Of a stretch of DNA of 64,000 nucleotides, positions 6,374 to 61,352 are shown one piece after another. This DNA is from Cephalotus follicularis (taxonomy: Eukaryota; Streptophyta; Magnoliopsida; Oxalidales; Cephalotaceae), in contig BDDD01005208.1 of NCBI GenBank assembly GCA_001972305.1, forward strand, positions 1 through 64,000. The letters are read 5' to 3'. Numbering within the stretch: position 1 is the first letter of the stretch; the number at the start of each line of letters is the position of its first letter. Below the pieces are notes generated by a model, which was not told the DNA's origin, did not search any database, and saw only the letters and a list, made by a program, of their open reading frames with translations. The translations under genes were made by a program, and so were the position numbers.

Positions 6374-6427
<54 letters not shown>

Positions 6428-31161: not shown

Positions 31162-33602
31162 TGTAACACCCCGTGCCCGGAGGACGGACACGTCACATTA
31201 CTCTCAATCCAATATACAATACAATGGTCGGGACTACCAATATAAAAATGCGAAAAAACTTAAAACTTTACAATACATGTCTTTGTGCGGAAGATACAAT
31301 ACAATAATCCATTCATGATATCGTACAATACAAATTATGTTACAATACTATGCCAGTCATTTCATTTCAATAAATTCTCAGTACAATACCCGTTATCAGT
31401 CTCATTAGTACAATTTACAATACAAGCTCTGTCACGTCAACGGTCAGGCGGTCGTACCGAATCTTCTATCCTTCTGTCCGCTGCTACCTGCTGCTCGACC
31501 TATGCCGCACACAAAAACTACAACACAGCCCCACCCCGAAGGATGGGCCTAGCAACAAGTTTAAGCAGAAACCCCATGCAGCGTGTATGCATGTACAATG
31601 TGCAATATCGGTGACAGATCATGCAATATCAATGGGCAGTGTACAATATCAATGCATGATACGGCAAATGCATGCATACAATTGGCGATCTTACTATCCA
31701 CATGACACTGGCCCATAACGGAGCATATGAATAGGATCTATAACAATCAATTAATAACAGACACTCGGTGGTAGAGTATAAAACACCCAATAAATCAATC
31801 GTAACCTATAGAGCATGCTACCTCGGGTCAGTACAATGTCAATCAATGGTACTGATCAATCCCACGGAAGGTAGTCCTTTAAAAAAGGTGGGAGATCTAT
31901 CTACCCTTCTCAGACTGATCAGGTCTGGAACTCGTAGATCTTCTAGCCTATGGCTGGGTGAATATAGTCTCGATGAGCTACAACCGAGGGAGCCACTAAA
32001 CCTTCAGGGAGCTACGACCCTCAAAGGATCATCAATCATCAATCAATCAATATGCTCAACAGCAAGACAATACAATAAATGAAACGATCGACGGAATCGG
32101 TGGATAGAGTCAACAACCTAACATGCCGACGCGAATCATAAGGTCGCTCTATAGGATCCATAAAATACAATCAATCTATCAGTACAATGTCATTACAATG
32201 TCATTAAGTGGTCATGTCAAATGGAGAAGTGTGAAAATGCGTCCAACTTTCTGAACTTAGACTCACAACACTTATGACTCAATCAATCAATCAATAGCCA
32301 ATATACGGTGACAATCAGATAGCGAGATAGGAAAGAACATATATCTGGTCAAAGAAGGTCACTGGGTCATCGTCTATTCCTCAAGTTGTCACTTTATCAA
32401 TTTATCAATTCAATCTTTGAAAACCATGAAAAACTGTGTTTTAAATGCTTGAATACCTCAAGTGAGGCTCCGGTCAAGCGGAAATGTGAAAAGGAGTTGA
32501 AAACTAGCCTTAAAACAGTTAAAAGTTCCATTCAACCCGATAGGCGTCGATGTCCTTGGCCAAAGGCATCGATGCGTATCAGGGCATTCCTTTAAAACTG
32601 TAGAAGGACATCGACGTCTTTGAAAGACGTCGATGTCTTTTTCAGTATCTATAGAGTTCTGGCTAAAGACGTCAATGTCCTTTGACAAAGACGTCAACGC
32701 GTTTCAACAAAAATACCCTGGAAATGCGCATCGATGTTTAGCGTCGATGTCTTCTCTGGGGAGAAGAGATCCGAAGGCAAAGACGTCGATGTCTTTCAAA
32801 GACGTCGATGTCTTTGCTGCGGAATCAAACATGTTGCATTCTACAGCAAAAGACATCGATGTCCATGGGCTGGGGATCGATGTCTTTGCTGGGCAAGGTC
32901 GATTTTTGTGCAGAAAACCAACAAATCTCATGTCAAAATCTATTTAAAACCCATTCTTTGAAAACCAAGGGTTAAAATCAATCTCTTAGGGTTAGTAAAA
33001 CTAGTTACAACCTTCAAATTTCAATTTCAATCTTTATGGATCAGTTAGATCAAGGAAACCAATAAAAACCCTAGTTTCATAATTCAATACAATACCATCA
33101 TTCAATCAATCATGCAATTCAATTATTCAGTCAATTAAGCAATAGGCAATACAAGTAGAGAAGTCCTACCTATAACGAAGCTTCAACGATTGAGCTTCGA
33201 ATCAATCAATCGGTTGGGAAACTTAAAGAATCCACTGCTATCTTGCTCAAACCAAGGAAAGGTGAGACTTCAATTGTTATTTGCTGTTGGAGATGCAATC
33301 TGGAGCTGCTATGGGGAAGGAGGCTGCCGACAGGGAGAGAGAGGAGGAGAAGGAGAGAAAGAGGGAGAAGAATGAGAAATGAGAGAATGAGAGTAGAGAA
33401 TTGACTTATATAGTCAATTTTGCCAATTCTCCAAAACTCAGCCCAAAATCCCGACTATACATGCATATAATCAATACAATAACAATAGGTATAGGAATAC
33501 CTCTATTCAATATAGTACAATATAGTTCAATATGGTACAGTACGGTATAGTATCTGCATGAATAATGTTCAACAGTACAGAAAGGGAATTCGGGTCGTTA
33601 CC
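31162..33602 (-). mobile_element. G3 3' LTR
   Basis: The 2,441-base LTR aligns along its whole length with 58959-61352 at several percent divergence. The last base pair of the TG...CA boundary is altered (GTTACC). A palindromic TTGACTTATATAGTCAA at 33401-33417 gives a TATATAAG box on the element strand. The LTR is rich in CAATACAAT and AATC repeats. Confidence 0.92.
32545..32905. repeat. TCGA-centred palindrome array in G3 3' LTR
   Basis: About twelve words of the types AAAGACGTCGATGTCTTT, GACATCGACGTC, GGCATCGATG and GGGATCGATGTC. The same positions in the sister LTR (60345-60690) carry the same array with several substitutions. Confidence 0.92.
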
Positions 33603-33616
33603 TTCTCCCCTCCTTA
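33603..33616 (-). other. G3 polypurine tract
   Basis: TAAGGAGGGGAGAA on the minus strand directly before the 3' LTR. Confidence 0.85.
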
Positions 33617-33649
33617 AAAGAATCTGGTCCCCAAATTCATCAGTCACTC

Positions 33650-35643: not shown

Positions 35644-35847
35644 TGTTTAGCATAAAAATGTGTTATTTTTAATGAGTTATTTGTGATATTTTTTTGCTTG
35701 GAATAGACTACTTTGGTTGTGTTATGTTGATTTTCAGATAAAAGTGCAAAAGTACCAAAGTGCAAGAATAGTACCCAAAGTTGTGCCAGTTAGAGCTTGA
35801 AAGTGCAAAGATTGAAGAATTGACAAATTCGGCAGAAACAGAGTAAA

Positions 35848-36140
35848 AAGCGTCGATGTCTTTCATAGGGATCGATGTCTTTTCTGGGTTTACAATAAAC
35901 GCGTCAACATCTTGAGGATCGACGTCTTTTCTGGGAATTGCAACTTACCTTCAAGAGCTATGAGAAAGACATCGACGTCTTTGATTATAGGGATCGACGT
36001 CTTTGTGTAAATTGGACCTGTGAATTTTGGAGCAAAAGTCATCGACGTCTTTCATCATAGGGATCGATGTCTTTCACGCGCATCTCAGCAAAATGTAATT
36101 TTTAGCAAAAGACATCGACGTCTTTTGTTAGGGATCGACG
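35848..36140. repeat. TCGA-centred palindrome array in A1 5' LTR
   Basis: Ten words, largely alternating a two-armed form (AAAGACATCGACGTCTTT) with a one-armed form (AGGGATCGAYGTCTTT). The equivalent array in the 3' LTR is 55437-55735. Confidence 0.94.
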
Positions 36141-36230
36141 TCTTCTTCTGCAGCAGAAATAGAAAGTTAGATTTTTTGCCAGATTTTGTAACTAGGATTC
36201 ATTTATTTTCGTTTTTGATTAGTTTTGTAG

Positions 36231-36239
36231 TATAAAAAC
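36231..36239 (+). promoter_or_regulatory. A1 TATA box
   Basis: TATAAAAAC lies about 590 bases into the LTR, a plausible core promoter; it is conserved at 55820 in the 3' LTR. Confidence 0.55.
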
Positions 36240-36537
36240 AATGTAATACCGGCCATATCGAGTGTAGAGTAGAAGTAGAGGCTGGTAGAAACCCTAATTT
36301 CTTTTATCAATTTAGTTTTGTTTTACAATGTTTAGTAGCTAAACTTTTCAAGGTTTTGGGGAACAACAAAGCCTAGATTTTTATTGTTTCAATTCCATCA
36401 ATAAAAATGCTTGAATATTTGATTTGTTCTTCAATATTTCTGCCTTCGCACACACTTTGTTTGTCTGATTAAAATCCACAAACATCTTATCGGTGAATCT
36501 GAAAGTTGGTGAATAAACGGTGCTTAACTCAATCAAC

Positions 36538-36700
36538 GGAGTCTACTCATACGATTTGCCAACAACGAACACACTTCGTATAGAACTAGCATGTCTACTC
36601 ATACGTCTTGCCGCCGTTGCCGTACTTCGTATAGACCTAGCATGTCTACTCATACGTCTTGTCATCACTGTCGCATTCCGTATCGACCTAGCTACCGCTG
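36538..36700 (+). repeat. ~62-bp tandem repeat in A1 LTR, three units
   Basis: Units share GTCTACTCATACG and a CGTATAGACCTAGCAT-type end. The 3' LTR has two units (about 56130-56235), so copy number changed after insertion. Confidence 0.85.
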
Positions 36701-36967
36701 ATTATCAAGGTATGATCGTTCAAATTAAATGGAATTGTTCAATACAATCTACGGTGAGTTTCTATACCCTAAAACCGCTTTTTAATTATATATTTTCTTA
36801 GCTTCTATTCATTAGTTTGATAGATTATCTCAATATTTGGTATACTTCACCTAGGTTGGATATATTATAACTAGTTTATCGTTTCCCTGCGTTCGACCCG
36901 TTACTGCATGATCCGTGCACTTGCGGCTATAAATTTTAAAACATTCTTTTTACAGTGAACAAGTTTT

Positions 36968-36985
36968 TGGCGCCGTTGCCGGGGA
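36968..36985 (+). other. A1 primer binding site (tRNA-Asp type)
   Basis: TGGCGCCGTTGCCGGGGA is complementary to the 3' end expected for plant tRNA-Asp and is the site typical of Athila elements. The leader to 37300 is non-coding and AT-rich. Confidence 0.9.
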
Positions 36986-37300: not shown

Positions 37301-39100
37301 ATGACCGATTGGGTGCGTGGTCCAAACCATCGCTTAGAAAGAATTAATCAACCAAGACCAATGGCAGACGCACGCCCAATTCAAACTCTTCGCGATAGAT
37401 TCTACCCCGCTAGGACAACGCAACCATCCAGTATCCTGTTGCCTGCACATGACGGGAACAATTTTGAGTTAAAATCACAGTTCATTAGCATGCTCCCGCA
37501 CTTTCATGGATTATCCAACGAGGATGCATATCTCTTCCTTCGAGAGTTCGAGGAGGTATGTGCCCTCATGAAACTTCAGCAACTATCTGACAATGATATC
37601 AAGTTGCGATTCATCAATTTTTCTCTTAAAGCTGGAGCTAAGAAGTGGCTCTACAGTCTCCCAACTAATTCCATCTCCACATGGGATCAGTTCACTGTCT
37701 CGTTCCTTAAGAAATTCTTTCCACTTCATAAAACCAATAAACTTAGGAACGACATTCTCTAGTTTCGTCAAAAACCCAATGAATCATTTTCTAGGTGTAT
37801 GGAACGTTTTAAGGATCTTCTCGTAGAGTGTCCTCATCATGGTTTGAACATGTGGCATTTATGCCAAATCATCTATGAAGGGATCGACTACCAGACCAAG
37901 CAATTGGTCGAATCTATGTGTCCCGATGGGTTCACCTCGTACACTGATGAAAACGAGGCATGGAATTTCCTTTTAGATTTAGGTGAGCGAACTAGAGAGT
38001 GGGAGTCAGCTCAAGTTTCCAAGAGAGCTTTGCCAAATAACGGGTACGTTATAGAAGAAGCAGTTGCTAAAGAAGCACAGCTAGAGAGTCTCGTGACTAG
38101 ACTAGAATCAGTAATTAGGGGTTCCACACAAGTAAATCAAATCGATCAAAGCACCCCTATGTGTTCTTGGTGCCAGTCCCCAAACCATGTTTTTGAAGAA
38201 TGCCAAATCTATATTGACAACCAACATGCTCCTGAGAATGTATCTGCTATGAACCAATACAACCCGTATAGTAACACTTACAATCCGGGTTGGCGAAATC
38301 ATCCAAACTTCTCATGGAATCAAGGACAAAGCATGCGAGGATAATCCAGCTTTTCGGGGCAGCCTTCTAGCGTTGGTGCCCCACCCTCACACTTTTCTGG
38401 ACAACCTTCGAGCTTCCCTAGCCAGTCTGTACCACAGTAGACATTTCAAAGGTTCTCCCAAAATTCGAACACTATTCGACCATCCTTCCCACCACAAAAT
38501 CAATTCTTAAGTCAACAGACATCAAGTTTGCCCAACCAAAGGGATGATACAACTACGATTTCGTCGCTAGAAAAGAGCATGGAACTTCTAATGAGCACCA
38601 TGATGACTAGTCAGCATAGCATGGAAAAACAAATTTCACAACTAGCATCCGCTCTGCACGAAAGAGAAAAAGGAAAAATGCCCTCACAACCTGACCCGAA
38701 TCCTAGGACTTCCTTAAACCATTCCGCTCAAATCCAACAACCTGTAAATCTGCAAAACTCAGCTTCCTCCTCTGGTCCATCAAAACAAGTTTTTGCCCTA
38801 AGGAGTGGAAATGAATACCATCCAGCAGATCAAACGGAGAACGTGAGTGAGCAAATGGAGGAATCCTTGGCGCAAGAAAATTTGCAAGAATTATTGATTG
38901 ACCCATCAGAGCAATCAATATAATTAAATGTGCAAGATGAATTGAGGAAGGAGAAAGAGGATGAGAAGAAGAAACAACCGGTCGAGGTGCCAAAGCGTTC
39001 ATTTGACCCACCAGCCCCCTTTCCAAAAAGATTGCAAAGCAAGAAAGCCCCAGCAATGGAGAAGATCATCGAAACATTTAAGCAAGTCCAAATCAATATT
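37301..39100 (+). pseudogene. gag: A1 gag, decayed
   Basis: The frame is continuous in one phase from MTDWVRGPNHRLER to the C2 insertion but carries stops at about 37760, 38342, 38438 and 38921. Recognisable parts: a capsid-like stretch (FHGLSNEDAYLFLREFEEV; AKKWLYSLP; WDQFTVSFLKKFFP), a single CCHC knuckle (CSWCQSPNHVFEEC, about 38163), and a Gln/Ser/Pro-rich low-complexity linker. The end (ETFKQVQINI) is where Athila polyproteins lead toward protease; that domain is not present. Gag binds element RNA and forms particles. Confidence 0.9.
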
Positions 39101-39204
39101 GTTGACGATTTAGTCTCAATCCTAGTTTTGATGATAACAAATTTGCATTTAACAAGTTTACTTGATGTGCAAGATATTAGAAAGTTCCACAAAAGGCAAA
39201 AATC

Positions 39205-39715
39205 ATCTGCAGGGCAAAGACATCGACCTACAAGCAAAGACATCGACGTCCGTACAAAAGACATCGATCCCTTTCAAGAAGACATCGACGTCTTTAGTGC
39301 CAAAAGTTACAGATCAAATTTTATTGAAGACATCGATCCCTACAAGCAAAGACATCGACGTCCGTACAAAAGACATCGATACCTATCAGGAAGACATCGT
39401 TGTCTTAAGGTGCAAAAGTTACAGGTCAAAATTGATTGATCACATCGATCCTTTCTCATGAAGACATCGACGCCTTTCTAGACCTAACTGCAATTCCCGG
39501 AAAAGACATCGACCCCTATAGAAGAAGTCGACGTGATGCTCATAGCTTCAAATGCCTGGACATATTCCCAGAAATGACATCGACGCCTTTAAAAAGACAT
39601 CGACGTCTTTTTAAATGGATTGACCCGGGAAACATGGAACGGCTAGTAAACGCACTTGCAATGTCTAGCAACTATCAAAGACATCGACGCCTTTCTAAAG
39701 ACATCGACGTCTTTA
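39205..39715. repeat. TCGA-centred palindrome array in C2 LTR
   Basis: About twenty words, including AAAGACATCGACGTCTTT, GAAGACATCGACGCCTTT and GACATCGATCCCT. The last is the exact reverse complement of the one-armed word of the A1 array. Spacing is 15-40 bases. Confidence 0.94.
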
Positions 39716-39805
39716 TGTCAGCAGAGACAAATTCAAAGTTGCACTAACACATTTTAAAATCAAAAGCTTCCATGAATTATGCAACGGCTACAAATCTTTT
39801 CTGCT

Positions 39806-39814
39806 TATAAAAGG
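39806..39814 (+). promoter_or_regulatory. C2 TATA box
   Basis: TATAAAAGG lies about 90 bases downstream of the palindrome array. The following CAGCAAGA/AATTCAGC region is a plausible start of the R region. Confidence 0.65.
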
Positions 39815-40092
39815 AAGACTCAACCCTCAGAAGAAATAGAACAATTCAGCAAGATTCAACAATAATTACATAACAGCAAGAGAGATATCAAATTCAAGCA
39901 TTCTAGTGTGTAAAAGCACAAAGTGCTCTATAGTGTTCTAAAAGGCTTCTAAGCTCTATCTTTTGAGTTTTTCTGAGTGTTTCATATTGTGATCTGTATT
40001 AGTCATATCAACCTATTTGAGAGGTTATCTTGTAAACACTTTCACCAATTACTTGTAAAAGAGGAGAATCCTCTAAGGTCTTGAGGTCAACA

Positions 40093-40890
40093 TCAAAAAC
40101 CGAAACAAAGAAGGAAGAAATAATTTGTTTCGAATGCAACAAACCCGGACATTACAAGAGTGAATGTCCAAGATTGAAGAAAGCAAAAGACACAATAAAA
40201 AAGAAGAAAGCTATGCTTGCTACATGGTTCGATAGTGATGAATCAAGCTCCGAAGAAGAAGAAAACCAAGAAGAAGCACAAATAGCATTGATGGCAATCA
40301 ACGATAGTGATGAAGATGAAGATGAAAACGAGGTAAGTGAACTTCTTGATTTACTTGAGAAATTTAGTTTAGAAAATACTTCTCTTAAAAAGACCATTAA
40401 AGCACTTAATAGAGAAAATGTTAGTTTAAAACATGAAATAGAATGTCTATCTAATAAGTCCTTAGATGATAAGACTATCTATCTTGAAAAGGAAAATGAG
40501 ACCCTAAAAGTAGAAATTGATGCCCTTAAGAAGACTTTTTCAAAATTTTCAAATAGTAGTGAAAAACTTGATAAACTCTTAGGTCTTCAAAGATGTGTTT
40601 TTAACAAGGCTGGCCTAGGTTATGATGAGAAGAAAAATGTTAAGCATTTTCAAAAATATCTTGAAAACAAAAATTGTAAAAAGACCTCATCTAGCATAGC
40701 TTGCACCTATTGCAATAAATATGGTCACACTACACAAAATTGTTATCACAAAAGAAATGACATGCACAAGAGAAATTTATTGTTGAAAAATAAAGAGTTT
40801 AAAGTAAGAACTATATGGGTTCCAAAAGGAACATTTATTACTAACCCCCCCAGACCCAAAGCAACTTGGGTACCAAAGTCTACAACATAA
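40093..40890 (+). pseudogene. gag: C2 gag, C-terminal part
   Basis: An open frame lacking the capsid part. It has two CCHC knuckles: CFECNKPGHYKSEC at about 40129 and CTYCNKYGHTTQNC at about 40703. Between them is an acidic Ser/Glu/Asp stretch (DSDESSSEEEENQEE) and a coiled-coil-like region (40340-40560, leucine/glutamate-rich). The end has repeated WVPK motifs (TIWVPKGTF, ATWVPKSTT), known from SIRE-like copia Gag. It is open throughout, which suggests recent insertion or little decay, but the protein is N-terminally truncated. Confidence 0.85.
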
Positions 40891-40907
40891 ATTCTCTTGT
40901 TTTGTAG

Positions 40908-41877
40908 ATGTCACTAAAGAGAAATCGTTGGTACCTCGATAGTGGATGCTCCAAGCACATGACGGGTAATAAACGCCTATTTATGACTTGGAAACCAAAA
41001 GACGGAGGAAACGTATCCTTTGGAGACAACACAAAAGGACAAATCGTTGGAACTGGCTCCATAGGTAATAAAGATATTACTATTACTAATGTATTGCATG
41101 TTAAAGGACTCAAACACAATCACTTGAGCATAAGTCAATTATGTGACAAGAATTGTAGAGTTATTTTCCAAAATACATCATGTAGAGTTGTAGACAACAA
41201 CAATAATGCTACTAAGTTTATTGGACAAAAAGAAGGCAATGTTTATGTTATAAACTTAAATGATCTTCAAAATCAAAATGTAAAATGCCTTGTCTCTTTA
41301 AATGAAGATAGGTGGATGTGGCATAGAAGGCTTGGACATGTTAGAATGAGAACTATTGCTAAAATTTTGAAACATGACCTAGTTAAAGGTCTTCCAAAAT
41401 TAAGTTTTCAAAAAGATAAATTGTGTAATGCTTGCCAACAAGGTAAACAAATAAGAGCAAGTTTTAAATCTACCAACATTGTCTCAACTTCTATGCCACT
41501 CGAACTACTTCATATGGATCTTTTCGGACCAATAAACATAAGAAGCTTAGGAGGTAAATCTTATGCCTATGTTATTGTTGATGACTACACTAGGTACACA
41601 TGGGTTTATTTTTTGGCATATAAAAGTGAAACTTTTACATTCTTTGCAATTTTTTGTAAAATTGTTCAAAAAGAAAAAGGACTTTCTATTTTGAAAATTA
41701 GAAATGATCATGGCAAAGAATTTGAAAATAATATTTTTGATAATTATTGCATAGAAAATGGTTTCAAACATGAATTTTCAACCCCTAGGACTCCTCAACA
41801 AAATGGAGTTGTTGAAAGGAGAAATAGAACCTTAGAAGAAATGACAAGAACCATGCTTTGCGAAAATGATTTACCAA
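40908..41877 (+). pseudogene. pol: C2 pol, protease and partial integrase
   Basis: Copia pol beginning with the protease active site WYLDSGCSKHMTG (catalytic Asp present). GAG-pre-integrase motif MWHRRLGHVRMRT (about 41316) and zinc residues in CNACQQGK follow. Integrase catalytic residues are all visible: Asp in LLHMDLFGP, Asp in IRNDHGKEF, Glu in NGVVERRNRT. The frame is open without stops but breaks at about 41877 into A1 DNA, after which it reads a few foreign residues and ends at 41903. RT and RNase H are absent. Confidence 0.9.
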
Positions 41878-42992
41878 ACTCTTCCTGTTATCATTTCATC
41901 TGATCTTACTCCCAGTCAGGAAGAGGAGGTTATAGACCTACTCAAAGAAAATAAAGAGGCAATTGGTTGGACAATGGCTGACATCAAAGGAATTAGCCAT
42001 TGTATTTGCGAGCATCGCATTAATCTCATAGAAGCATCCAACCTTCTAGAGAACCTCAGCGAAGAGCAAATCCTTTGATGAAAGAGGCCATACAAAAAGA
42101 AATCTTGAAGTGGCTGGACAATGGGATCATTTATCCCATTTCGGATAGTCAATGGGTGAGTCCAGTCCACGTTGTTCCAAAGAAATCCGGAGTAACGGTA
42201 GTCCAATCCTCCACTGATGATTTACTTCCTACAAAAATTCAAACTAGATGGAGGGTGTGCATTGACTATCGAAAGTTGAATACAGCAACCTGGAAGGATC
42301 ATTTTCCACTTCCGTTTATATATCAAGTGCTAGATAGGTTAGCTGGTCGTGAGTATTATTTTTTTCTCGATGGGTACTCTGGATACAATCAAATTTCCAT
42401 CGCTCCACAAGATCAAGAGAAAACCACGTTCACATGCCCTTTCAGAACATTTGCTTACCGACGCATGCCGTTTGGCCTTTGCAATGCCCCCGCTACCTTC
42501 CAAAGGTACATGATGAGTATTTGCTCTGACATGGTGGAAGACTTTCTTGAAGTTTTTATGGATGACTTTTCTATGCATGGATCCTCATTTATTGAATGCC
42601 TTCAAACCCTAAAATTAGTACTCGAAAGAAGTCGAGAGAAGAATTTGGTGCTTAATTGGGAAAAGTGCAATTTTATGGTGAAGAAGGGGGTCGTTCTTGG
42701 ACATGTACTGTCAAAAGAAGGAATTCAAGTAGATAAAGAAAAAATTGAAGTCATCAAGCATTTGCCTCCACCTCGCAATGTGAAAGGTATCCGAGCATTC
42801 CTCGGACATGCTGGTTTTTATCGAAGGTTCATCAAGGATTTTAGCAAGGTAGCACGCCCCTTGACTTCGCTCCTAGCGAAAGATCAAGATTTTGTTTTCT
42901 CTGATGAGTGCCTTGTAGCATTTAACCGCTTAAACAAGGAGCTCACTTCCGCTCCTATCATTCAGGCACCTCTTTGGACTGAGCCTTTTGAG
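41878..42992 (+). pseudogene. pol: A1 pol, reverse transcriptase
   Basis: The first part (PVIISSDLTPSQEEEVIDLL) is the conserved Athila segment just before RT. A frame change near 42075 then leads into a long open RT frame: CIDYRKLNTATWKDHFPLPF, FFLDGYSGYNQI, FGLCNAPATFQRYMMSI, active site FMDDFSMHG (about 42557), GHVLSKEGIQVDKEKI, and FLGHAGFYRRFIKDFS. The frame reaches the RT/RNase H connection and is cut at 42992 by solo LTR S2. Confidence 0.93.
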
Positions 42993-45147
42993 TGATAGAA
43001 TCGGATATACCGAGTCCGGTGCCAAAATGGACTTAGGTGTTAAGGGTGTAGAATAAAAATTTAAATATACAATCATGCAGTGGAAGAACACCCAATAAAA
43101 CAAAACTAGTCCATTATGGCACGTCCACAGACCACATGGATCACCACAACATCAACAGAATTGAATTAGTGTCACCATTGCAAACAATGGTGACACACAA
43201 GCATGGCATAAGGAAGAAGGACCAAGAGTTTATACCAGTGGGTGTTGGCTCCTTTGTTCTTTACCGCTACAAGCTTGAGTAGAATCCCTTTGATCTTCTC
43301 CAAGCCTCAGGAACACCAAGTGATCCAACCAGTAAAATCAAAGTGCTTGAACTCACTCTCTCACTCACTTAGCTTAGAGAAGGAGTATTGATTATGACCA
43401 ATGAAGTCAATAATCAATCCACCCTAGATAAGTCTTTGCTTGGTGTTTATCAGATGAAGGAACACACACTTGCAGAGAAGAATTCGAGGTTAATTACCCA
43501 GCAAAAAATGTCTCAACCCTCTTCTTTCATTTTCTGCAGAAATGCTCTAATACCAGCCTCTAATTCTCTTTCCCAATCTCCCATTCACTTAGGATCATGG
43601 CCTTCACTCCCTGGGAGTCCGAAGCCATGAATCCCACGTTTCCATAACGTGTAAAAACCAGAGAAACTGGCTAAGGATGTGAGAGAAGTAGTGCCCACGA
43701 AGTGAGTTCGTGCACTGGTTGCACGTTCTGCTCAAAGACGTCGACTCCTTCCAAAAGACGTCGACGCCTATGCAACGTGGCACTAAAGCACATCTATGCT
43801 TTCTAAAAGACATCGACGTCTTTATCAGAGAAAAGCATCGACGTCTTTCTAAAAGACATCGACGCCTTTTGGCCAGTGAAGCATAAAGAGTCTAACTCTT
43901 TTAGTGATTTCATGTATCCTTCGAATATTGGTTAAGTAAGATCAAACATATGTGTTTCCACAAAATGTAAAATCCACGCAACCGATATTCAACACCAAGA
44001 CTTAATATGTCCAACATATCAAAGATCTAATCATTATAAGGCAGGGACCCTTTAAAATCTCGGTTAAAACGAGAGGTGTTCATAAATTACCAAAATACCC
44101 CTAGGGTTCGGTTTAGCCATTCTAAATAGTCCTTGACCATTTAAATGCTCTAGGAATAATATCTAATATTATCCAGATGGAAAAATTAATCTAATTAATT
44201 TTCCCACACCTCAATAACCATAGATTTTCTAAGTCGTCAGTTCGTGTGTACTATAATCCCTTGTCATGCTTGGCCCAGATGGAGGTCTAGGGTAAGGATA
44301 TGTGTCAACCCTAGATAGTACCTCAATTCCTAAAATATCTGATCATTACTAGTACCTTTGGTAAACTCTCCGGAAATCTAATTTCCAGTCTACCTCAACC
44401 TTGGCCAAGGATTTCATAAGTCCATAGTATAATCAGACCATAATAGGGCCGATCACCTTCGCTCAGGTGTGACAATCCCATATTGCGCACTCACTTATAT
44501 TCGTATAGATTCGATCATACCCAAAGACCACCCGATTGCCAGCCCTGCGTAAGGACTGGGTAAGGTGGAGATCAAAGCATAACCGTCTCCGTGCAATATA
44601 GAGTAGTCGCTCAGGTATAAGGATCAAACGAGTTAAAGAACTCGCTAAGTGATGATCACTTATACACAACCGCAACAAGTAGGAGTCACTACTGACACGA
44701 GAATAGGGACTATCCAAATGGTGTCTCCTACGCGGGTCCAGTTCATTGTACACGCTCCCAACGCGAACCCCGTATTTGCCCTAGTGTCCAACACAGATGG
44801 TAGTGAGAGAATCCATCCCCCGATTCCATGAGCAGGCAACATACGCGCATGTCTATCCGGTTCACTAATGCCCACAAAGTGAACCTATGACTTGGTACAA
44901 TTTTGACATAAGGAGTAAGGTAACCAGTCTCACAGCCTCCATGCCAGGCATCCAACCTTATGTCGGGGCATCACTAGTATAAGTAGGTAATAAAAAGAAC
45001 TACTTCAATAATGTTATAAAATACAAGTGATATAGCCATAACAAATTTAGCACGCATCATATATACATAAGAATAAGATTGTTCCATACATGGCAAGATA
45101 TAATATGACAACCCATCTAATGGCTTGTCGGGTCACTATATCTAACA
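42993..45147. mobile_element. S2: solo LTR in A1 pol
   Basis: It has TG...CA ends (TGATAGAATCGG...CTAACA), 2,155 bases, flanked by TTGAG at 42988-42992 and 45148-45152; removing it rejoins A1 RT to RNase H. No PBS, PPT or coding region. On the minus strand it begins TGTTAGATATAGTGACC, which looks more like a copia LTR, but the family is unassigned. Confidence 0.93.
43733..43875. repeat. TCGA-centred palindrome array in S2
   Basis: Six words: AAAGACGTCGACTCC, AAAGACGTCGACGCC, CACATCTATG (degenerate), AAAGACATCGACGTCTTT, AGCATCGACGTCTTT, AAAGACATCGACGCCTTT. The CTCC and CGCC variants recall G2 and C2. Confidence 0.9.
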
Positions 45148-48369: not shown

Positions 48370-48605
48370 AACAAAGACGTCGACGTCTTTCACAAAGGCG
48401 TCGATGTCATTCATGTCAGGCGTCGATGACCAAGTCTCAGTGTCAGCGCATTCTTCTACAGAAGGCGTCGATGTTCAACTAAAGGCATCGATGTCTTCAC
48501 ATCAAAATCCAGGTAGGTAGCATAGGGCGTCGATGTCTTTCCATAGACGTCGATCCCTTTCAATCAGTAACGAGGCAAAACCTAAAAGACGTCGATGTCT
48601 TTTTC
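48370..48605. repeat. TCGA-centred palindrome array A in G2 LTR
   Basis: Eight words such as AAAGACGTCGACGTCTTT (perfect palindrome, 48373), AAGGCGTCGATGTC, GGGCGTCGATGTC, AGACGTCGATCCCTTT and AAAGACGTCGATGTCTTT. Confidence 0.93.
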
Positions 48606-49364
48606 CAACAGTAGTCGTCTTCTACCTCACGACTTATCAAACAGTGGCCTTAACATCCCATAGCCATGCATAATAACAAGTTTTCAAGGCAAGAAACCAA
48701 CATGCAGATATTCAAAACATATCTATCATATCATGGCATCAATCCAGTAACAATATCATTCCAAGAATCATGCATTTTATACATCCCAAAATCGTATATC
48801 ATGCATGGATATTAAACTCGAATTTACAGTATGGCTTTCCCCTACCTCTGGCCTCAAGTTAGAAGCCGAAAGTCCACCTCTTTTAGTATCCACGAAGTCA
48901 CTTGAGTCCCCAGGTACGGCTTGGAAGCTCCCCGGTCCGTCCTAGCAGTTGGTGTGCAAGCTCCAAGTTCCCTTGCTCAACAATGGTGGCTCTCACACAC
49001 TCACTGTTTTACTCTCTCTCTTTCTTCTGGTGTTTTAAAACGAGAGAGATAAGTGGGGAGGGTTATTCTTATGCAGATAGCTTTCCCCCGACATTCTTCT
49101 CCTGGCATTTAACAGCCACATGTGTGCTCTCTCCCATTTTCCTTCTTTCTGCATTTCTTTTGTTTTCTTTAACCTTCTTCCTTGCAGGTTGCATGTGCGG
49201 GTGGAAATCCCTTGCATGTTCCATGTGAGGAGCAAGCATAAGCATTCCTGACAGCCCACCGACATGCTCAACACGTCACAAGGCACTTGAAAGGCGTCTG
49301 GTAAAGCCCCCAAGATCCCTTTGCATGTTACTTCTGCCAGCCAGAAAGCACGACAGATGTCTTT

Positions 49365-49525
49365 TGAAAAGGCGTCGACGTCTTTACATAGACGTCGATG
49401 CCTTTTCCATTTTTGTAAGAAGGTGTCGATGCCTTCCCCCAAAGTCGACGTTCACGGTCATTCATTCACGCGTACCTCAATCCTCATAGGCGTCGGCGTC
49501 TTTCAAAAGACGTCGATGTCTTTAT
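49365..49525. repeat. TCGA-centred palindrome array B in G2 LTR
   Basis: Six to seven words: AAGGCGTCGACGTCTTT, AGACGTCGATGCCTTT, AGGTGTCGATGCCTT, AAGTCGACGTT, AGGCGTCGGCGTCTTT, AAAGACGTCGATGTCTTT. A CATAAATAGGG box follows at 49556 on the plus strand, antisense to the element. Confidence 0.93.
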
Positions 49526-49671
49526 CCCAAAATAGCGCCATTCCATTTCCAGGTCCATAAATAGGGTTTGCAAGCATCTTTTGAGTTCAAAACTCAACAT
49601 TCTCATAAAATCAAGCTTAAGATTACATCATAAATGGAAATATTACATTCAGGAAAATACCGGGCGTTACA

Positions 49672-49716: not shown

Positions 49717-52700
49717 CTAGAACAAGTGCGGGTAGCGTTTTCGGATGTCCTCCCCACGCTCCCAAGTTGCCTCATCAGGTTTGTGAAACTGCCATTGAAC
49801 CTTGACCATGGAAATGGTTCGGTTCCTCAAAGTCTGCATCTTCTGATCGAGAATCCGCACAGGTAACTCCTCACAAGATAGATCATCCTGTACAGGAACA
49901 GTATCATAATCCAGGACATGTGATGGGTCCGGGATATATCTCCTCAGCATAGATATGTGGAAGACGTCGTGCACGTTTGATAGTGCAGGAGGTAAGGCAA
50001 GCTGATAGGCCACCTCCCCAACTCTCTCTAGAATCTCGAAAGGACCAATGTAGCGAGGAGCTAATTTCCCCTTCCTTCCAAACCGTTGCACGCCCTTCCA
50101 CGAAGATACTTTCAGGAACACGTGATCACCCACGTTAAAGACCAGAGGTCTTCTCTTCACATTGTCAGTGTAGCTCTTCTGCCGACTCTGAGCAGCAAGT
50201 AGCTTCTTCTTGATCGTCCTGATCTTCTCTGAAGTTTCTTCTACCAACTCAGTCCAGAGTAAAGGTCGCTCCCCGACCTCATCCCAACACACAGGGGATC
50301 AGCACTTCCTCCCATACAGTGCTTCAAACGGTGCCATGCCGATACTGGAGTGGTAGCTGTTATTGTAGGAAAACTCTATCAGAGGAATATGATCTTCCCA
50401 GGTACCAGCAAAATCAATAACGCAAGCCCGTAGCATATCCTCCAAGGTCTGGATGGTACGCTCAGACTGCCCATCGGTCTGAGGGTGGAAAGCAGTACTC
50501 AAGTTCAGCTTTGTCCCAAAAGCCGACTGAAACCTCTTCCAAAAGTTGGAAGTGAAGATAGCATCTCTATCACACACGATGCTGACTGGAACCCCGTGTA
50601 GCCTCACTATCTCCTTCACATACAGTCGAGCCAGCTTGCTCGTAGAATCAGTAACGTGTGTCGGCAGAAAGTGCGCTGATTTGGTGAGTCTATCCACGAT
50701 AACCCACACGGCATTACGACGGTTCTGAGTCAGAGGAAAACCTGAAACGAAATCCATTGTAACATGTTCCCACTTCCACTCTGGAATGGGCAAAGGTTGT
50801 AACAACCCTGCTGGTCTCTGGTGCTCGGCCTTAACTGTCTGGCAAGTTAAACACCTTGCCACATACCCAGTGATCTCCCGCTTCATGTCAGGCCACCAGT
50901 AACACTTCTTCATGTCTTGATACATCTTCGTGCTACCCGGATGAATGCTGTACATGGATTTATGAGCACAGCGGAGTAGCTGATCCTTCACTCTAGGCTC
51001 ATTCAGAATACATACACGTCCCTGATATCTCATAATACCATCTTCGTGCACTCTAAAATCAGATTTCGAATCCAGATTCTCTCGAATCTTCTGCAATTCA
51101 GGATCATGTGGTTGTGCTTCTTTGATGCGATGTAGTAGCACTGGTTCTACCCGCATATCGACTAGAAAGATCCCTGGTAACTGATTGAATGGAGACCATT
51201 CTCGGAAGTCTTCCAACATCTTCCATTGAGACACCATGGTACTGGCAAGCATAGCCTTGCGGCTCAAGGCATCAGCGACCACATTCGCTCTCCCCGGGTG
51301 ATATTGTACACTGCAGTCATAATCGTTGAAGAATTCCACCCATTTGCGCTGCCTCATGTTCAGTGTATCTTGACAAAACAGATACCTCAAGCTTTTGTGA
51401 TCGGTGAAGATCTCAAACTGTGCCCCATAAAGGTAGTGCCTCCACTTCTGAAGGGCGAAGATGATAGCTGCAAGCTCAAGGTCATGAGTTGGGTAATTTT
51501 CTTCATGCGGTTTAAGCTTCCTCGAGGCATATGCAATCACTCTGCCTCACTGCATCAACACACAGCCCAAACCCTTACCTGATGCATCACTGTATACTTC
51601 AAAGCCTTCATTATCCTCAGGTAATGCCAAGATAGGAGCGGAAACTAACCGGTCCTTCAGCTCACGAAAACTAGCCTCGCAATCCTCGTCCCAGAAGAAA
51701 AGAGTCTTTTTCTGGGTCAGTCTGGTTAAAGGTTCAGCTATTCGTGAAAAGTTTTGGATAAACCTATGGTAATATCCCGCCAAACCAAGGAAACTGCGCA
51801 CCTCCGTCACATTCTTTGGTTGCGGCCAGTTTCTCACTACTTCAGTTTTTGACGGATCCACCGTCAAGCCTTCTCCAGATACTATGTGACCGAGAAAGAT
51901 CACATGGTCAAGCCAGAACTCGCATTTGCCAAACTTGGCGTACAATCGATGTTCTCTAAGGACCTGTAATACCATCCTCAGGTGTCGAGTGTGCTCCTCC
52001 TCACTCCTCGAATATACCAATATATCATCAATGAATACCACAACAAACTAGTCCAGGTACGGTCGGAATACGTCATTCATCAATGACATAAAAGCTGCCG
52101 GTGCATTGGTAACACCGAACGGCATCATCAAGAATTCGTAGTGACCATACCGTGTTCGGAAGGCAGTTTTCTCAATGTCCCCTTCCCTTACTCGCAACTG
52201 GTGGTAACCCGTTCTCAAATCGAGCTTAGAAAACACCCTCGATCCTTGCAACAGATCAAATAAATCCTCAATGTGGGGTAAAGGATATTTATTCTTGATA
52301 GTTGCTTTGTTCAACATTCGGTAATCAATACAGAGTCTCATCGACCCATCCTTCTTCTTGACAAACAGTATCGGTGCACCCCACGGAGAAACACTGGGTC
52401 TTACAAAACCCTTATCAATCAGGTCTTGTAACTGTAGTTTCAGCTCTCGCAATTCATCCGGAGCCATCCGATAGGGTGATTTAGAGATAGGAGCCGTTCC
52501 GGGATTAAGATCAATAACGAACTCCATACTCCTTTTGGGTGGTAAGGATCCCAAGTCATCAGGAAACACATCCGGAAATTCGCAAACAACTGGAATTTCC
52601 TCCAAACTCAAGCCTTTCTCCTTCCTTCGGTCAATAACATATGCCAAATATCCCTCGCATCCCTTTTCCAGGTATCTCGATGCTCGGATAAAAGATATGA

Positions 52701-53350: not shown

Positions 53351-54263
53351 GCATTACTCCCCTGGCTGGGAGTACCCTGAGAAGCAGTCTGTTGAGACTT
53401 GTTCTTCGATGACTTCGTCGGAGAACCACCTTGCCACTTTGACGATGTCGGTCGGGACTGTGTAGGACCCTGCTTATTCTCCTTTGCGCGGGCCCTCTAA
53501 GCCCGGTCCTCACCAGATATCATCTCCTTTGCGCAACCTCCACATAAGTCCTCAGCTCCATGGCTCTAATCCTCGACCGAAGATCCGGTCGCAACCCTCT
53601 CAAGAACCTCCGTATCTTCTTTGCTTCATCAGCTACCAGGTACGATGAATGTCTAGCCAACTCCATGAACTTTGCTTGATATTCTGCAACAGTCATCTCT
53701 TCTTGCCGTAACTCCAAGAGCTCAGTCTCTCGTCACTCTTGCTCAATGTACGGAACATAAGTCTCCAGGAACTCTGTCTGGAATCGGTCCCAAGTGTTGT
53801 CCAGTCCTTGTGATTCCCACTTTGTTCTAACCATTTCCCACCAATGAGTGGCCTCACCCCATAGGCGGTACACAGCAAATCTCAACTTTTGATCATCAGT
53901 ACAGTTCATCCCCTGAAAGATCTTCTCCAGGTCCTGCAGCCATCTCTCAGCAACCGTAGCATCCAGTTCCCCCTTGAAGCTGGGCGGATTCAGCCTTATG
54001 AATCTCTCAATATCTCCCCCAAAACCATCCCCTCCCGGGCAGTGGTCGGGACCTCTATGCTGCGGTCGGGCCTGCGCATGGTACTGGCGCATCTCCTCCG
54101 CATTGGCCCTGCTAAAGTCCATTTGTTGTTGAAAGTAGTCTGCGATCCGAACCATCGGATCTCTGTCATCCTGGGGGATATTCATCCCTTGCGGAACATT
54201 AGATTCTTCCGGGGCATTAGCTCCAACGGCTCTAGCCCTAGCACGTGTCCTTCTTCGATCCAT
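53351..54263 (-). pseudogene. gag: G2 gag
   Basis: Start MDRRRTRARARAVGANAPEE at 54263. Capsid-like segments RFIRLNPPSFKGELDATVAE, WLQDLEKIFQGMNCTDDQKL and [16 protein letters not shown], then after a stop (about 53733) LLELRQEEMTVAEYQAKFME and KKIRRFLRGLRPDLRSRI. A second stop (53520) and one frameshift between 53520 and about 53350 separate it from the zinc knuckles. The first ~145 codons are duplicated at 46440-46876. Confidence 0.92.
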
Positions 54264-55266
54264 TTTTCCTATAAGAAGATTGACGGTCAGTCACAACTTT
54301 TAGGAAAACAATTCATTAATTCCCAAGGAAAGTATCCTAGCTAAGCATATTTGGAATATGCTCTGATACCACTGTTGTCACACCCCGTTCATAGGAACTG
54401 CAACATTAAAGCGGTAAAGGCAATTAACATAAAATACAGCTCATGAAAAACCATAAAAAAAAAACTTTTCCAAGAGTAACAGTTGCGGAAGCATAACAAG
54501 CTCATAAGCTGTAGCACGTAACGTGCATCCCATACCGCACGCTACCCAAATACCAGTCATAAAGGTTAATCGCCCACGAAACGGAGCGTGAAATGCAGTA
54601 CAATATAAAATTTCCTTCAGGAACAGAACCATAATAATGGTACATCCAAAAACCATAATCCACATGGATTTATTACAAAACAAAATGATAAACAAAACAG
54701 GAATATAACTAGATCAAGAATATAACAACTTGATCTTCGTCCATGCCGATCCAAGTGCACACTGCATCAATCTGTAAAGCAGGGGGTTAGCCTTTGTCCT
54801 CACTCGGCTAAGTCATAACAGTAATTCGGGATCAACATAATGCATGTCATGATATGAATGCATAATGATGCAGTGCAGTGGAGACCCAGTTTATACATAT
54901 ATGAAAATATATATACGTATAACAGTACAGTAAAATATCAGTGTTTCATATATAAGAAATATATGTATAAAGTAACAGTACAGTAGTAACCCGGCCAGGG
55001 ATACGTCAACGATCACAGTAATGTCCGTCAAGGACCAGTAAACAGTACAGTACAGTATGTCCACATAGGACCACAACAACAGTCAGGATGTCCACATAAG
55101 ACCACAACAGGCAGTATGTCCACATGGGACCACAACAAAAATATATAGCGCCACCAACTCCTGGCCCCACGCTACACTCCCACTCCGGTCCCCACTTCGG
55201 GCAACCGAGCGAGGCAACAGTACAGTGAGTCACCTAGCCTTGCTCCAGGCCCCTAGGTACAACCCC
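53826..55266 (-). repeat. G2 direct repeat, right copy
   Basis: Near-identical to 46439-47879 at an offset of 7,387 bases. It contains gag N-terminal part, PBS (54360-54371, plus-strand GCTCTGATACCA), and 891 bases of LTR (54376-55266). It ends in the middle of the LTR, at TACAACCCC, and joins A1 LTR sequence. Confidence 0.95.
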
Positions 55267-56499
55267 TTATTTGTGATATTTTTATGCTTGGAATAGACTA
55301 CTTTGGTTATGTTATGTTGATTTTCATATATAAGTGCAAAAGGACCAAAGTGCAAGAATGCTACCCAAAGTTGTGCCAATTAGAGCTTGAAAGTGAAAGA
55401 TTGAAGAATTGACAAATTCGGCAGAAACAGAGTAAAAAGCGTCGATGTTTTTCATAGGGATCGATGTCTTTTCTGGGTTTACAATAAACGCGTCAACGTC
55501 TTGAGGATCGACGTCTTTTCTGGGAATTGCAACTTACCTTCAAGAGCTATGAGAAAGACATCGACGTCTTTGATCATAGGGATCGACGTCTTTGTGTAAA
55601 TTGGACCTGTGAATTTTGGAGCAAAAGACATCGACGTCTTTCATCATAGGGATCGATGTCTTTCATGCGCATCTCAGCAAAACGTAATTTTTAGCAAAAG
55701 ACATCGACGTCTTTTGTTAGGGATCGACGTCTTCTTCTGCAGCAGAAATAGAAAGTTAGATTTTTTGCCAGATTTTGTAACTAGGATTCATTTATTTCCG
55801 TTTTTTATTAGTTTTGTAGTATAAAAACAATGTAATGCCGGCCAAATCAAGTGTAGAGTAGAAGTAGAGGCTGGTAGAAACCCTAATTTCTTTTATCAAT
55901 TTAGTTTTGTTTCACAATGTTTAGTAGATAAACTTTTCAAGGTTTTGGGGAAGAACAAAGCCTAGATTGTTATTGTTTCAATTCCATCAATAAAAATCCT
56001 TGAATATTTGATTTGTTCTTCAATATTTCTGCCTTCGCACACACTTTGTCTGTCTGATTAAAATCCACATACATCTTGTCGGTGAAGCTGAAAATTGGTG
56101 AATAAACGGTGCTTAACTCAATCAACGGAGTCTACTCATACGATTTGCCAACAACGAACACACTTCATATAGACCTAGCATGTCTACTCATACGTCTTGT
56201 CATCATTGTCACACTCTGTATCGACCTAGCTACCGCTGATTATCAAGGTATGATCGTTCAAATTAAATAGAATTGTTCAATACAATCTACAGTGAGTTTC
56301 TATACCCTAAAACCGCTTTTTAATTATATATTTTCTTAGCTTCTATTCATTAGTTTGATAGTTTATCTCAATATTTGGTATACTTCGCCTAGGTTGGATA
56401 TATTATAACTAGTTTATCGTTTCCCTGCGTTCGACCCGTTACTGCATGATCCGTGCACTTGCGGCTATAAATTTTAAAACATTCTTTTTACAGTGAACA
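55267..56499 (+). mobile_element. A1 3' LTR, first 33 bases missing
   Basis: It aligns with 35677-36961 and ends ...CAGTGAACA at the AAAAGG duplication. TCGA array 55437-55735, TATA box at 55820, and two instead of three ~62-base repeats at about 56130-56235. Confidence 0.93.
55437..55735. repeat. TCGA-centred palindrome array in A1 3' LTR
   Basis: The same ten words as 35848-36140 with few substitutions (for example GTCAACGTC versus GTCAACATC; GACATCGACGTC versus GTCATCGACGTC). Confidence 0.94.
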
Positions 56500-56505
56500 A
56501 AAAGG

Positions 56506-58800: not shown

Positions 58801-58941
58801 CAATGGGATGATTAGATACAATCTCTTTCAATTCCAGTATCAATCTCTTTTCCAATAACAATAGCATGAATAGATAAGGACCTATATCATGCAAATCCAT
58901 TCAATCAACGCATTAATATATTTCTCTAGCAGGCCAACCAA

Positions 58942-58955
58942 TGTCTCTTATACCA
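58942..58955 (-). other. G3 primer binding site (degenerate)
   Basis: TGGTATAAGAGACA on the minus strand, three bases from the LTR end (58959); it resembles the initiator-Met site with one substitution (C to A). Confidence 0.78.
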
Positions 58956-58958
58956 TTC

Positions 58959-61352
58959 TGTAACACCCAGTGCCCGGAGGACGGATACGTGGCATTACTC
59001 TCAATCCAATATGCAATACAATGGTCGGGACTAGCAATATAAAAATGCAGAAAAACATAAAGCATTACAATACATGTCATTGTGCGAAAGATACAATACA
59101 ATAATCCATTCATGATACCGTACAATACAAATTATGTTACAATACTATGCCAGTCATTTCATTTCAATACATTCTCAGTACAATACTCGTTATCAGTCTC
59201 ATCTGTACAATCTACAATACAAGCTCTGTCACATCAATGGTCATGCGATCGCACCGAATCTTCAATCCTTCTGTTCGCTGCTACCTGCTGCCCTACCTAT
59301 GCTGCACACAAAAATCATAACACAGCCCCACCACGAAGGATGGGGTTAGCCACAAGGCTAAGCAGAGACCCCATGCAGCGTGTATGCATGTACAATGTGC
59401 AATATTGGTGACAGTTCATACAATATCAATATGCAGTGTACAATATCAATGCATGATATGGAAAATGCATGCATACAATTGGCAATGTAAGTATCCATAT
59501 TACACTGGCCCATAACAGAGCATATGAATAGGATCTATAACAATCAATCAATAGCAGACACTCGGTGGTGGTGTATAAAACACCCAATCAATCATATCCT
59601 ATAGAGCATCCGACCTCGGATTAAAATAATGTCAATTAATGGTAATGATCAATGCCATGGAAGGTAGTCCTTCGAAAAAGGTGGGAGATCTATCTATTGT
59701 TCTCAGACTGATCAGGTCTGGAACTCGTAGATCTTCTAGCCTATGTCTGGGTCAATACAGTCTCGATGAGCTACAATCGAGGGAGCTACTAAACCGTCAG
59801 GGAGCTACGGCCCTCAAGGGAGCATCAATCATCAATCAATCAATATGCTCAACAGCAAGACAATACAGTAAATGAAACGATCGACGGAATAGCTAGACAG
59901 AGTCAAAAACCTAACATGCCGACTTGAATCATAAGATCGCTCTATAGGATCCATACAATACAATCAATCTGTCAGTACAATGTCAATACAATGTCATTAA
60001 GTGGTGATGTCTAATGGAGAAGTGGGAAAATGCGTCCAACGTTTTGAACTTAGACTCACAACACTTATGACTCAATCAATCAATCAATAGCCAATAGATG
60101 GTGATAATCAGACAGCGAGATAGGAAAGAACATCTATCTTATCAAAGAACGTCACTGGGTCATCGCCTATGGCTCAAGTTGTCACTTTATCAATTTATCA
60201 ATTCATCAATTCAATCTTTGAAAACCATGGAAAAATGTGTTTCAAATGCTTGAATACCTCAAGTGAGGCTCCGGTCAAGCAGCAATGTGAAAAGGAGTTG
60301 AAAACTAGCCTTAAAACAGTTAAAAGTTCCATTAAGCCCGATAGGCGTCGATGTCCTTGGCCAAAGACATCGATGCGTATCAGGGCATTCCTTTAAAACT
60401 GTAGAAGGACATCGACATCTTTGAAAGACATCGATGTCTTCTCTGTATCTGTAGAGTTCTGGCCAAAGATGTCAATGTCCTTGGATAAGGACGTCGACGC
60501 GTTTCAATAAAAATAGCCTGGAAATACGCATCGATTTTCAACGTCGATGTCTTCTCTGGGGAGAAGAGATCCCAAGGCAAAGACGTCGATGTCTTTGGTG
60601 TGGAATCAAAGATGCTGCATTCTAAAGAAAAAGACATCGATGTCCATGGGCTAGGGATCGATTCTTTGTTGGGCAGGGTCGATTTTTGTGCAGAAAAACC
60701 AGCAAATCTCAAGTCAAAATCCAAAAATCATTCTCTTAAGGTTAGTAAAACTAGATACAACCTTCAAATTTCAATTTCAATCTTCGTAGACCAGTTAGAT
60801 CAAGGAAACCAATAAAAACCCTAGTTTCACAATTCAATACAATACCATCATTCAATCAATCATGCAATTCAATTAATCAGTCAATTAAGCAATAGGCAAT
60901 ACAAGTAGAGAAGTCCTACCTATAACGAAGCTTCAACGGTTGAGCTTCCAGTCAATCAATCGGCTAGGAAACTTGAATAATCCACTGCTATCTTGCTCAA
61001 ACCAAGGAAAGGTAAGACTTCAATTGTTATTTGTTGTTGGAGATGCGATCCGGAGCTGCTATGGGGAAGGAGGCTGCCGGCTAGAAGAGAGTGGAGGAGA
61101 AGGATAGAGAGAGGGAGAAGAATGAGAAATGAGAGAATGAGAGTAAAGAATTGACTTGTATAGTCAATTCTGCCAATTCTTCGAAACTCAGCCGAAAATC
61201 CTGAATATACATGCATATAATCAATACAATAACAATAGGTATAGGAATACCTCAATTCAATACAATAAAAAACAGTTCAATATGGTACAATACAGTATAG
61301 TATATGGATGAACAGTGTTCAACAGTGCAGAATGGGAATTCGGGTCGTTACA
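58959..61352 (-). mobile_element. G3 5' LTR
   Basis: 2,394 bases, aligning with 31162-33602. Plus-strand start TGTAACACCCAG, end GGGTCGTTACA. TCGA array at 60345-60690; TTGACTTGTATAGTCAA at 61151-61167 corresponds to the TATA palindrome of the other LTR with one change. Confidence 0.93.
60345..60690. repeat. TCGA-centred palindrome array in G3 5' LTR
   Basis: The same series as 32545-32905 (TAGGCGTCGATGTCC, AAAGACATCGATGCG, AAAGACGTCGATGTCTTT, GGGATCGATT), with several CpG sites turned to CA or TG relative to its sister. Confidence 0.92.

Follow-up and report, generated by a model that had tools for sequence, protein, structure and literature searches.

Arrays of one palindromic word in the long terminal repeats of copia and gypsy retrotransposons of Cephalotus follicularis

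We analyzed 64,000 bases of the genome of Cephalotus follicularis, a carnivorous pitcher plant of the order Oxalidales (contig BDDD01005208.1, positions 1 to 64,000, forward strand; this whole stretch is referred to here as the window), in which five families of nested long terminal repeat (LTR) retrotransposons carry arrays of one palindromic word, AAAGACATCGACGTCTTT. The families are A1 (Athila-like gypsy), G2 and G3 (chromovirus-type gypsy), C2 (Sirevirus-type copia), and S2 (copia), and the copia, Athila-like, and chromovirus-type assignments made in an earlier note on this DNA stand. G3, the outermost element, lies on the minus strand, with its 5′ LTR at 58959 to 61351 and its 3′ LTR at 31162 to 33601 (89% identity between the two; bounds approximate). 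Its pol is interrupted by A1 on the plus strand (5′ LTR, 35644 to 36961; 3′ LTR, 55267 to 56499), which contains Ty3/gypsy pol domains and, after the 5′ LTR, the primer-binding site (PBS) TGGCGCCGTTGCCGGGGA, which we take to be of the Athila type. By direct reading, the A1 target duplication AAAAGG is matched at 56500 to 56505. The A1 gag is interrupted by C2, a truncated element on the plus strand (5′ LTR, 39100 to 40090, right bound approximate; Pfam domains in 40908 to 41903); neither its reverse transcriptase (RT) nor its 3′ LTR was seen in the window. The A1 RT/RNase H region is interrupted by S2, a solo LTR at 42993 to 45147 with the target duplication TTGAG on both sides; the array of this element was correctly placed in an LTR by the earlier note, with the correction that the copia element reads on the minus strand. 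The A1 3′ end was replaced by G2, a minus-strand element with an LTR at 46989 to 49671 and the PBS TGGTATCAGAGC past 46989 on that strand. Encoded in G2 at 49717 to 50298 is a protein with a chromodomain match (PF00385; E value, 8.5e-5; 22.8 bits, below the curated cutoff of 25.1). A compact G3 copy at a sampled locus (L016) consists of a gypsy pol flanked by two G3-type LTRs, and the end of this pol (7044 to 7619) is 54% identical to the same G2 protein. G2 replaced A1 sequence as far as about base 33 of the A1 3′ LTR, and it bears a 1,441-base terminal repeat (99.9%; 46439 to 47879 and 53826 to 55266); because this repeat starts within the LTR and runs into gag, the G2 ends are not LTR ends.

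Matches to the word or its reverse complement (at most four mismatches) numbered 58 in the window, 57 of which lay in seven LTR copies (13,230 bases). The remaining 50,770 bases held a single match, at 62367, outside the LTRs of the five families. At three mismatches there were 73 strand-wise matches (a single word often scores on both strands), compared with a mean of 0.03 and a maximum of 1 in 100 dinucleotide shuffles. The arrays were located in the G3 3′ LTR (32540 to 32866, minus strand; 8 words at four or fewer mismatches), the G3 5′ LTR (60341 to 60647, minus strand; 8 words), the A1 5′ LTR (35846 to 36147, plus strand; 7 words at four or fewer mismatches up to 36125 and a weaker one up to 36147), the A1 3′ LTR (55435 to 55735, plus strand; 7 words up to 55714 and a weaker one up to 55735), C2 (39217 to 39714, plus strand; 12 words at four or fewer mismatches, from 39236), S2 (43734 to 43869, unstranded; 5 words), and G2 (array a, 48373 to 48602, 6 words; array b, 49368 to 49523, 4 words; both minus strand). 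The earlier note had placed arrays of 6 to 20 words in these LTRs: the arrays are confirmed, at positions that agree within about 45 bases, and their sizes are 4 to 12 words at four or fewer mismatches. The two G2 arrays are in an LTR as claimed, but they share a single one (49671 down to 46989); the right-hand G2 copy breaks off ahead of its array. With the words masked, 250 bases on each side of the arrays gave no alignment between families, in accordance with the earlier claim that the surroundings are not alignable (clustering used these 250-base flanks; 1200-base flanks merged all arrays owing to element nesting). A single small mobile element or minisatellite that inserted into each LTR family would fit compact arrays in several families, but the spacers and array edges are unalignable between families except for A1 and the Sirevirus, and we disfavor this origin as very improbable.

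The word pattern is genuine, and it recurs throughout the genome. In the assembly (1.577 Gb; 9,746 contigs), exact 12-letter cores numbered 115,446, compared with 635 for the reversed controls: GACATCGACGTC yielded 44,020 plus 43,414 (reversed, 188 plus 204), GACATCGATGTC 18,133 (reversed, 39), and GACGTCGACGTC 9,879 (reversed, 204). These totals reflect family copy number rather than independent events. We sampled 20 stretches of 10 kb around matches on contig 1, 20 stretches of 3 kb around matches on contigs 2, 3, 4, and 7, and 10 stretches of 3 kb picked regardless of matches (loci are given as L-numbers); most of the sample was thus chosen by word matches, and an array was defined as three or more words. 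The sample and the window together contained 72 arrays, 71 of which were assigned to G3, A1, G2, S2, or the Sirevirus; the assignment relied on word-masked similarity except for two linker arrays, which were placed by where they lie within the element. One of the 71 is a Sirevirus/A1 fusion (see below), and the one remaining array (L005, 9161 to 9270) weakly matched the Sirevirus arrays. No sixth family with the word was found in this mostly word-selected sample. Among the 10 unselected stretches, one had an array, located in a G3 LTR. Arrays outside LTRs occurred in the S2 leader, about 300 bases past the 5′ LTR (L009, 4790 to 5034; alike in L014, L018, and L049), and in the Sirevirus linker between RNase H and the 3′ LTR (L005, 3382 to 3636; L011, 7136 to 7400). 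Equal density of the word outside LTRs, one of two observations that the earlier note had named as fatal to its proposal, was not seen: neither the window nor the sampled stretches had a dense occurrence of the word outside LTR elements. A search for arrays in other species via spurious proteins gave 70 candidates, none with an E value of ≤0.01.

Sirevirus LTRs are known to carry palindromic repeated motifs (RMs) in high copy upstream of the TATA box, and the linker ahead of ENV holds additional ones (PMC2829016). The C2 family is a Sirevirus by anatomy, as judged from copies L002, L005, and L011 (C2 itself is truncated). Each Sirevirus LTR array has 8 to 16 words, in line with the minimum of eight copies, grouped upstream of the TATA box, that characterizes an RM. 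Between them, these copies show the AT/TG attachment site after the polypurine tract (PPT) and several PPT copies in the linker (AAGGGGGAGAT followed by TG and two further linker copies in L005; three linker copies in L011; AAGGGGGAGAT followed by TG in L002), and the Sirevirus PBS TATCAGAGC has its counterpart in L002, where TATCAGAG follows the 5′ LTR end and differs at the ninth base. The Sirevirus gag in the window reaches 92% identity with proteins of Cephalotus follicularis, and some Cephalotus Sirevirus gag proteins related to 40036 to 40890 (P0137, P0141, and P0227) bear the Pfam label bZIP_1 (PF00170), for which a coiled coil is our guess. Like the RM, the word is palindromic and present in high copy, and it occupies both LTR sequence upstream of the TATA box and the linker that separates pol from the 3′ LTR; unlike the RM, it lacks the CGG-CCG signature, the core here being RTCGAY (PMC2829016). 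RMs with a TCGA center have been described in Tnd-1 (ACAATCGATTGT), which is exempt from the usual CGG-CCG core, and in Vitis (CGGTCGACCG) (PMC2829016). In the available text the RM is called Sirevirus specific and set against classic copia elements (Bousios et al. 2010, PMC2829016), whereas the same word is present here in the LTRs of A1, G2, G3, and S2. A1, G2, and G3 are gypsy elements, and they and S2 share the word without being shown as Sireviruses.

Palindromic arrays had already been described for Sireviruses, which the earlier note overlooked, so the C2 array was to be expected; the same word in four other families is surprising. The RM as described for Sireviruses (PMC2829016) is extended here by one word used in both copia and gypsy LTRs and by another, similarly built vocabulary. 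Among the matches listed in a literature search (titles and abstract openings), none reported one palindrome common to copia and gypsy LTRs, and the word's letter strings returned only papers that were unrelated by title and abstract opening. Two systems offer analogies. VANC target motifs are short, lie densely in the non-coding parts of VANDAL elements, as the word does in its elements, and evolve by tandem repeat formation; they differ in serving DNA transposons with a protein of their own and are not called palindromic in the available text, whereas the word is common to five LTR families (PMC5735166). Heat-responsive elements, gained repeatedly by Brassicaceae COPIA families, are likewise regulatory sites in the LTRs of different families, but they concern copia families and are heat shock factor sites (PMC5059998).

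Conservation within the word was assessed by a leave-one-out procedure, in which each position was counted while being ignored in word selection (43 arrays). The RTCGAY core was 96 to 99% kept, position 5 was 69% kept, and the other arm positions were 83 to 86% kept. In the same arrays, word-to-word spacing peaked at 19 to 22 bases. Words were more alike than spacers in all six family alignment sets (e.g., G2a, 0.830 versus 0.718), and in four of the six they also surpassed the sequence outside the array; the alignments held 39 arrays (15 of 16 G3, 6 of 6 S2a, 4 of 4 S2b, 8 of 12 G2a, 2 of 3 A1, and 4 of 13 Sirevirus). Within the same LTR pieces, CpG was retained at 322 of 359 central sites (0.90), 267 of 362 flanking ACGT-type sites, and 690 of 1,050 other sites (0.66), and this order held in all five sets (G3, S2a, S2b, G2a, and Sirevirus). 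The conservation of the core and of its CpG therefore points to a protein that reads the TCGA center. The earlier note had proposed the ACGT within GACGTC as a bZIP-type core. The data do not support this as the selected feature: the arms are least conserved at position 5, which belongs to ACGT, the central CpG is better retained than the ACGT-type one, and ACGT is absent from 18,133 of the 115,446 exact words. Words in which just one half contains ACGT numbered 87,434 genome-wide, compared with 57,428 expected from independent halves (1.52-fold), and each of the eight groups evaluated showed an excess, from 1.08- to 1.49-fold (two small groups, of 3 and 5 words, were left out). A heterodimeric binder would yield such asymmetry, and we attach no firm reading to it.

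Sirevirus arrays stopped 82 to 96 bases upstream of a TATA box in 9 of the 10 given (13 in all), the exception being L019, with no TATA box by the pattern used. The three A1 arrays stopped 83 to 86 bases upstream. In the window, the TATA boxes of A1 (36231 to 36237) and C2 (39806 to 39812), both on the plus strand, lie 84 and 92 bases downstream of the respective arrays. The G2a, G3, and S2 arrays may be transcribed, a point in favor of the words acting in RNA, with palindromes pairing in transcripts to give small RNAs or structural signals. Array transcripts also fold far better than shuffles (z scores of −6.2 for the S2 leader, −9.9 for G3, and −3.3 for A1), but good folding is expected of any palindrome array, the most conserved letters are the central TCGA that would form the loop of a one-word hairpin, and the A1 and Sirevirus arrays lie upstream of the TATA box; we regard an action in RNA as unlikely. 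Still more doubtful is a role of the arrays as host silencing targets rather than activators, bound by REM-type factors that recruit RNA polymerase IV (Pol IV). In Arabidopsis, REM factors do recruit Pol IV and bind motifs that are repeated at short distances, but the motifs given for them (TTTTGCTTAT and AAGCGGAT repeats) are unlike the word (PMC12270911), and what an element would gain by keeping silencing sites is not evident.

To compare spacers between families, we masked the words and cut the flanks to 20 bases (69 of the 72 arrays), with reversed targets and eight shuffles as controls. The Sirevirus-A1 pair gave 40 hit lines of at least 24 bits (pairs counted in both directions; best, 29.7), and reversed targets gave none for this pair. 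No other family pair reached 24 bits (22.6 or less), the controls peaking at 24.0 (2 hit lines for G2a-Sirevirus with reversed targets). With 150-base flanks, the controls reached at most 25.4 bits, and a few further pairs scored higher (G3-X1, 29.7; A1-S2b, 28.3; Sirevirus-X1, 28.3; G2a-Sirevirus, 26.8); they were set aside because they did not recur inside the arrays, and all spacer links besides A1-Sirevirus, being in the control range with 20-base flanks, were discarded. What the Sirevirus and A1 have in common is a cassette of a word, a spacer near AAAATTGACCTGTAACTTTTGG, and another word. The spacer GACCTGTAACTTTTGG, at three or fewer mismatches, matched 27 times in 354 kb, compared with 1 match for the reversed spacer; Sirevirus or A1 arrays accounted for 23 of the 27, and the other 4 lay elsewhere. 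Of the 13 Sirevirus arrays 10 contained it, as did all 3 A1 arrays. In the window it lies in the A1 5′ LTR (36015 to 36030, plus strand; 2 mismatches), twice in C2 (39300 to 39315 and 39412 to 39427, both minus strand), and in the A1 3′ LTR (55604 to 55619, plus strand). Relative to element sense, the cassette runs in opposite orientations in the Sirevirus and A1, where known. Because the two families share a cassette beyond the words, sequence passed between them; we infer that the Sirevirus-to-A1 direction is more likely because Sirevirus LTRs have up to three cassette copies and A1 LTRs have one.

A second link between these families is a fused LTR in L020 (minus strand), which runs from a Sirevirus LTR start (5263) through an array and changes into an A1 LTR at 4700 to 4730, its A1 half including the TATA box and followed by A1 gag. 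The junction at 4700 to 4730 falls among words, so that words from two superfamilies can join. A genome search with a 221-base query across the junction yielded 4,681 candidates; of the 40 that were scored, 39 ended at base 152 to 180, and the fusion looks like one recombination event rather than a spreading family. Another suspected chimera (L048, 1399 to 1935) was ruled out and is a Sirevirus cleanly inserted in a G3 LTR. The Sirevirus-A1 pair thus demonstrates the sharing of a larger cassette across superfamilies; none was seen for G2, G3, and S2 in the sequences compared. The spread of a module between families, one of the two options in the earlier note, is accordingly supported for the Sirevirus and A1, in spacer and words, and the other three families have no spacer similarity beyond the control level.

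Sirevirus arrays may have spread to all the other families by recombination or template switching, the spacers having decayed since. The cassette common to the Sirevirus and A1, the fused LTR joined at words, and the few further pairs above the control with 150-base flanks are consistent with such a spread, and template switching between plant LTR elements has been published (PMC1950507). However, the extra pairs disappear inside the arrays, the L020 fusion is not amplified, and in A1 the cassette is inverted with respect to element sense, so we look on a general spread with some doubt. We give nearly even chances to pure convergence, in which each family gained the word separately, with one abundant host factor rewarding it. 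At 20-base flanks no pair besides A1-Sirevirus has above-control spacer similarity, the array position varies among families, and the recurrent gain of heat-responsive elements in COPIA families is a published precedent (PMC5059998); on the other side, A1 and the Sirevirus have a spacer in common besides the words, and a word with 18 positions each at least 69% conserved is long for five independent origins.

On balance, we favor the reading that the arrays are cis-regulatory modules, that is, tandem putative docking sites for a dimeric DNA-binding protein, and that a cross-family piece was transferred at least once. From the sequence, we infer the bound protein, an activating effect, and the origin of the word in G2, G3, and S2. 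The protein would recognize the RTCGAY center with AAAGAC/GTCTTT arms, at sites separated by roughly two helical turns. Arrays just upstream of the TATA box, as in A1 and the Sirevirus (C2 type), would most likely be an enhancer or a silencing-resistance element that aids LTR transcription; in G2, G3, and S2, the presumed sites lie elsewhere in non-coding parts (other LTR places or the 5′ leader). The word is probably a local version of the Sirevirus palindromic RM, used by four further families, and at least once a larger piece would have moved between a Sirevirus and A1, with words usable as joining points.

Several observations weigh against this reading. We identified no plant factor that has an RTCGAY core. 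TATA-like sites lay upstream of the array in 2 of 5 G3, 5 of 6 S2a, and 2 of 2 G2a arrays tested, and the site for G2b lay 569 to 587 bases downstream of the array; a promoter-proximal model therefore does not fit G2, G3, and S2. Words were no better kept than sequence outside the array in S2a (0.875 versus 0.882) and A1 (0.809 versus 0.817). Word columns were picked by majority match, which biases comparisons in their favor. Among the 40 candidates scored, only the query locus L020 spans the junction, so the fusion looks single copy. Members of a family are related to one another, so the evidence amounts to five independent units, the families, and not thousands of words, and the A1 evidence comes from three arrays at two loci.

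A second palindrome vocabulary, CAGyCGrCTG, forms arrays in the window (930 to 1216) and in L001, L002, L003, L004, L006, L008, L012, L019, and L020. AGYCGRCT occurred 131 times in 354 kb (reversed, 20), and ACAGTCGACTGT occurred 28,876 times genome-wide (reversed, 65). Masked clustering of 16 such arrays gave three multimember groups and four singles. Among the carriers, L001 is copia-type as judged by its gag and L008 as judged by its RT, RNase H, and integrase; one group has a member, L003, that follows a chromovirus-type pol and is situated about 1.2 kb inside an apparent LTR. The vocabularies barely mix: there were 2 cores of the second in 24.4 kb of arrays of the first and 1 word of the first in 4.0 kb of arrays of the second. 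In L002, a Sirevirus-type element (LTRs at 2704 to 3855 and 6036 to 7187) seems to be inserted in a CAGyCGrCTG array (2358 to 2681 and 7201 to 7343). Other repeats in the window are a 1.1-kb direct duplication (98%; 15660 to 17902 and 20552 to 21113) with a third partial copy and inverted relatives at 24 to 29 kb, and tandem repeats of about 25 to 51 bases (beginning GTCATCTCGGTCGGTGAC) at 24037 to 24237 and 61709 to 61882.

Tentatively, and with the odds rather against it, LTR promoters of unrelated superfamilies might form sharing groups, each consisting of one TCGA-centered palindrome and its binding protein, with families switching group by recombining at the palindromes. Group 1 (GACrTCGAyGTC) would then comprise the Sirevirus, the Athila-like family, two chromovirus-type families, and a copia family, and group 2 (CAGyCGrCTG) copia and chromovirus-type LTRs. 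If this is true, palindromes would pair in either orientation, so that promoter modules would cross the copia/gypsy divide.

LTR control regions are usually treated as a family property, and repeated activator sites such as the Tnt1 BII box and the Tto1 13-bp repeat each lie within single families. A word common to copia and gypsy, together with a cassette common to two families, suggests that the elements of a single host have regulators in common and are able to exchange promoter parts. With the arrays one can test directly whether a single host factor activates or shields many families together, and also what the Sirevirus palindromes described in 2010 do.

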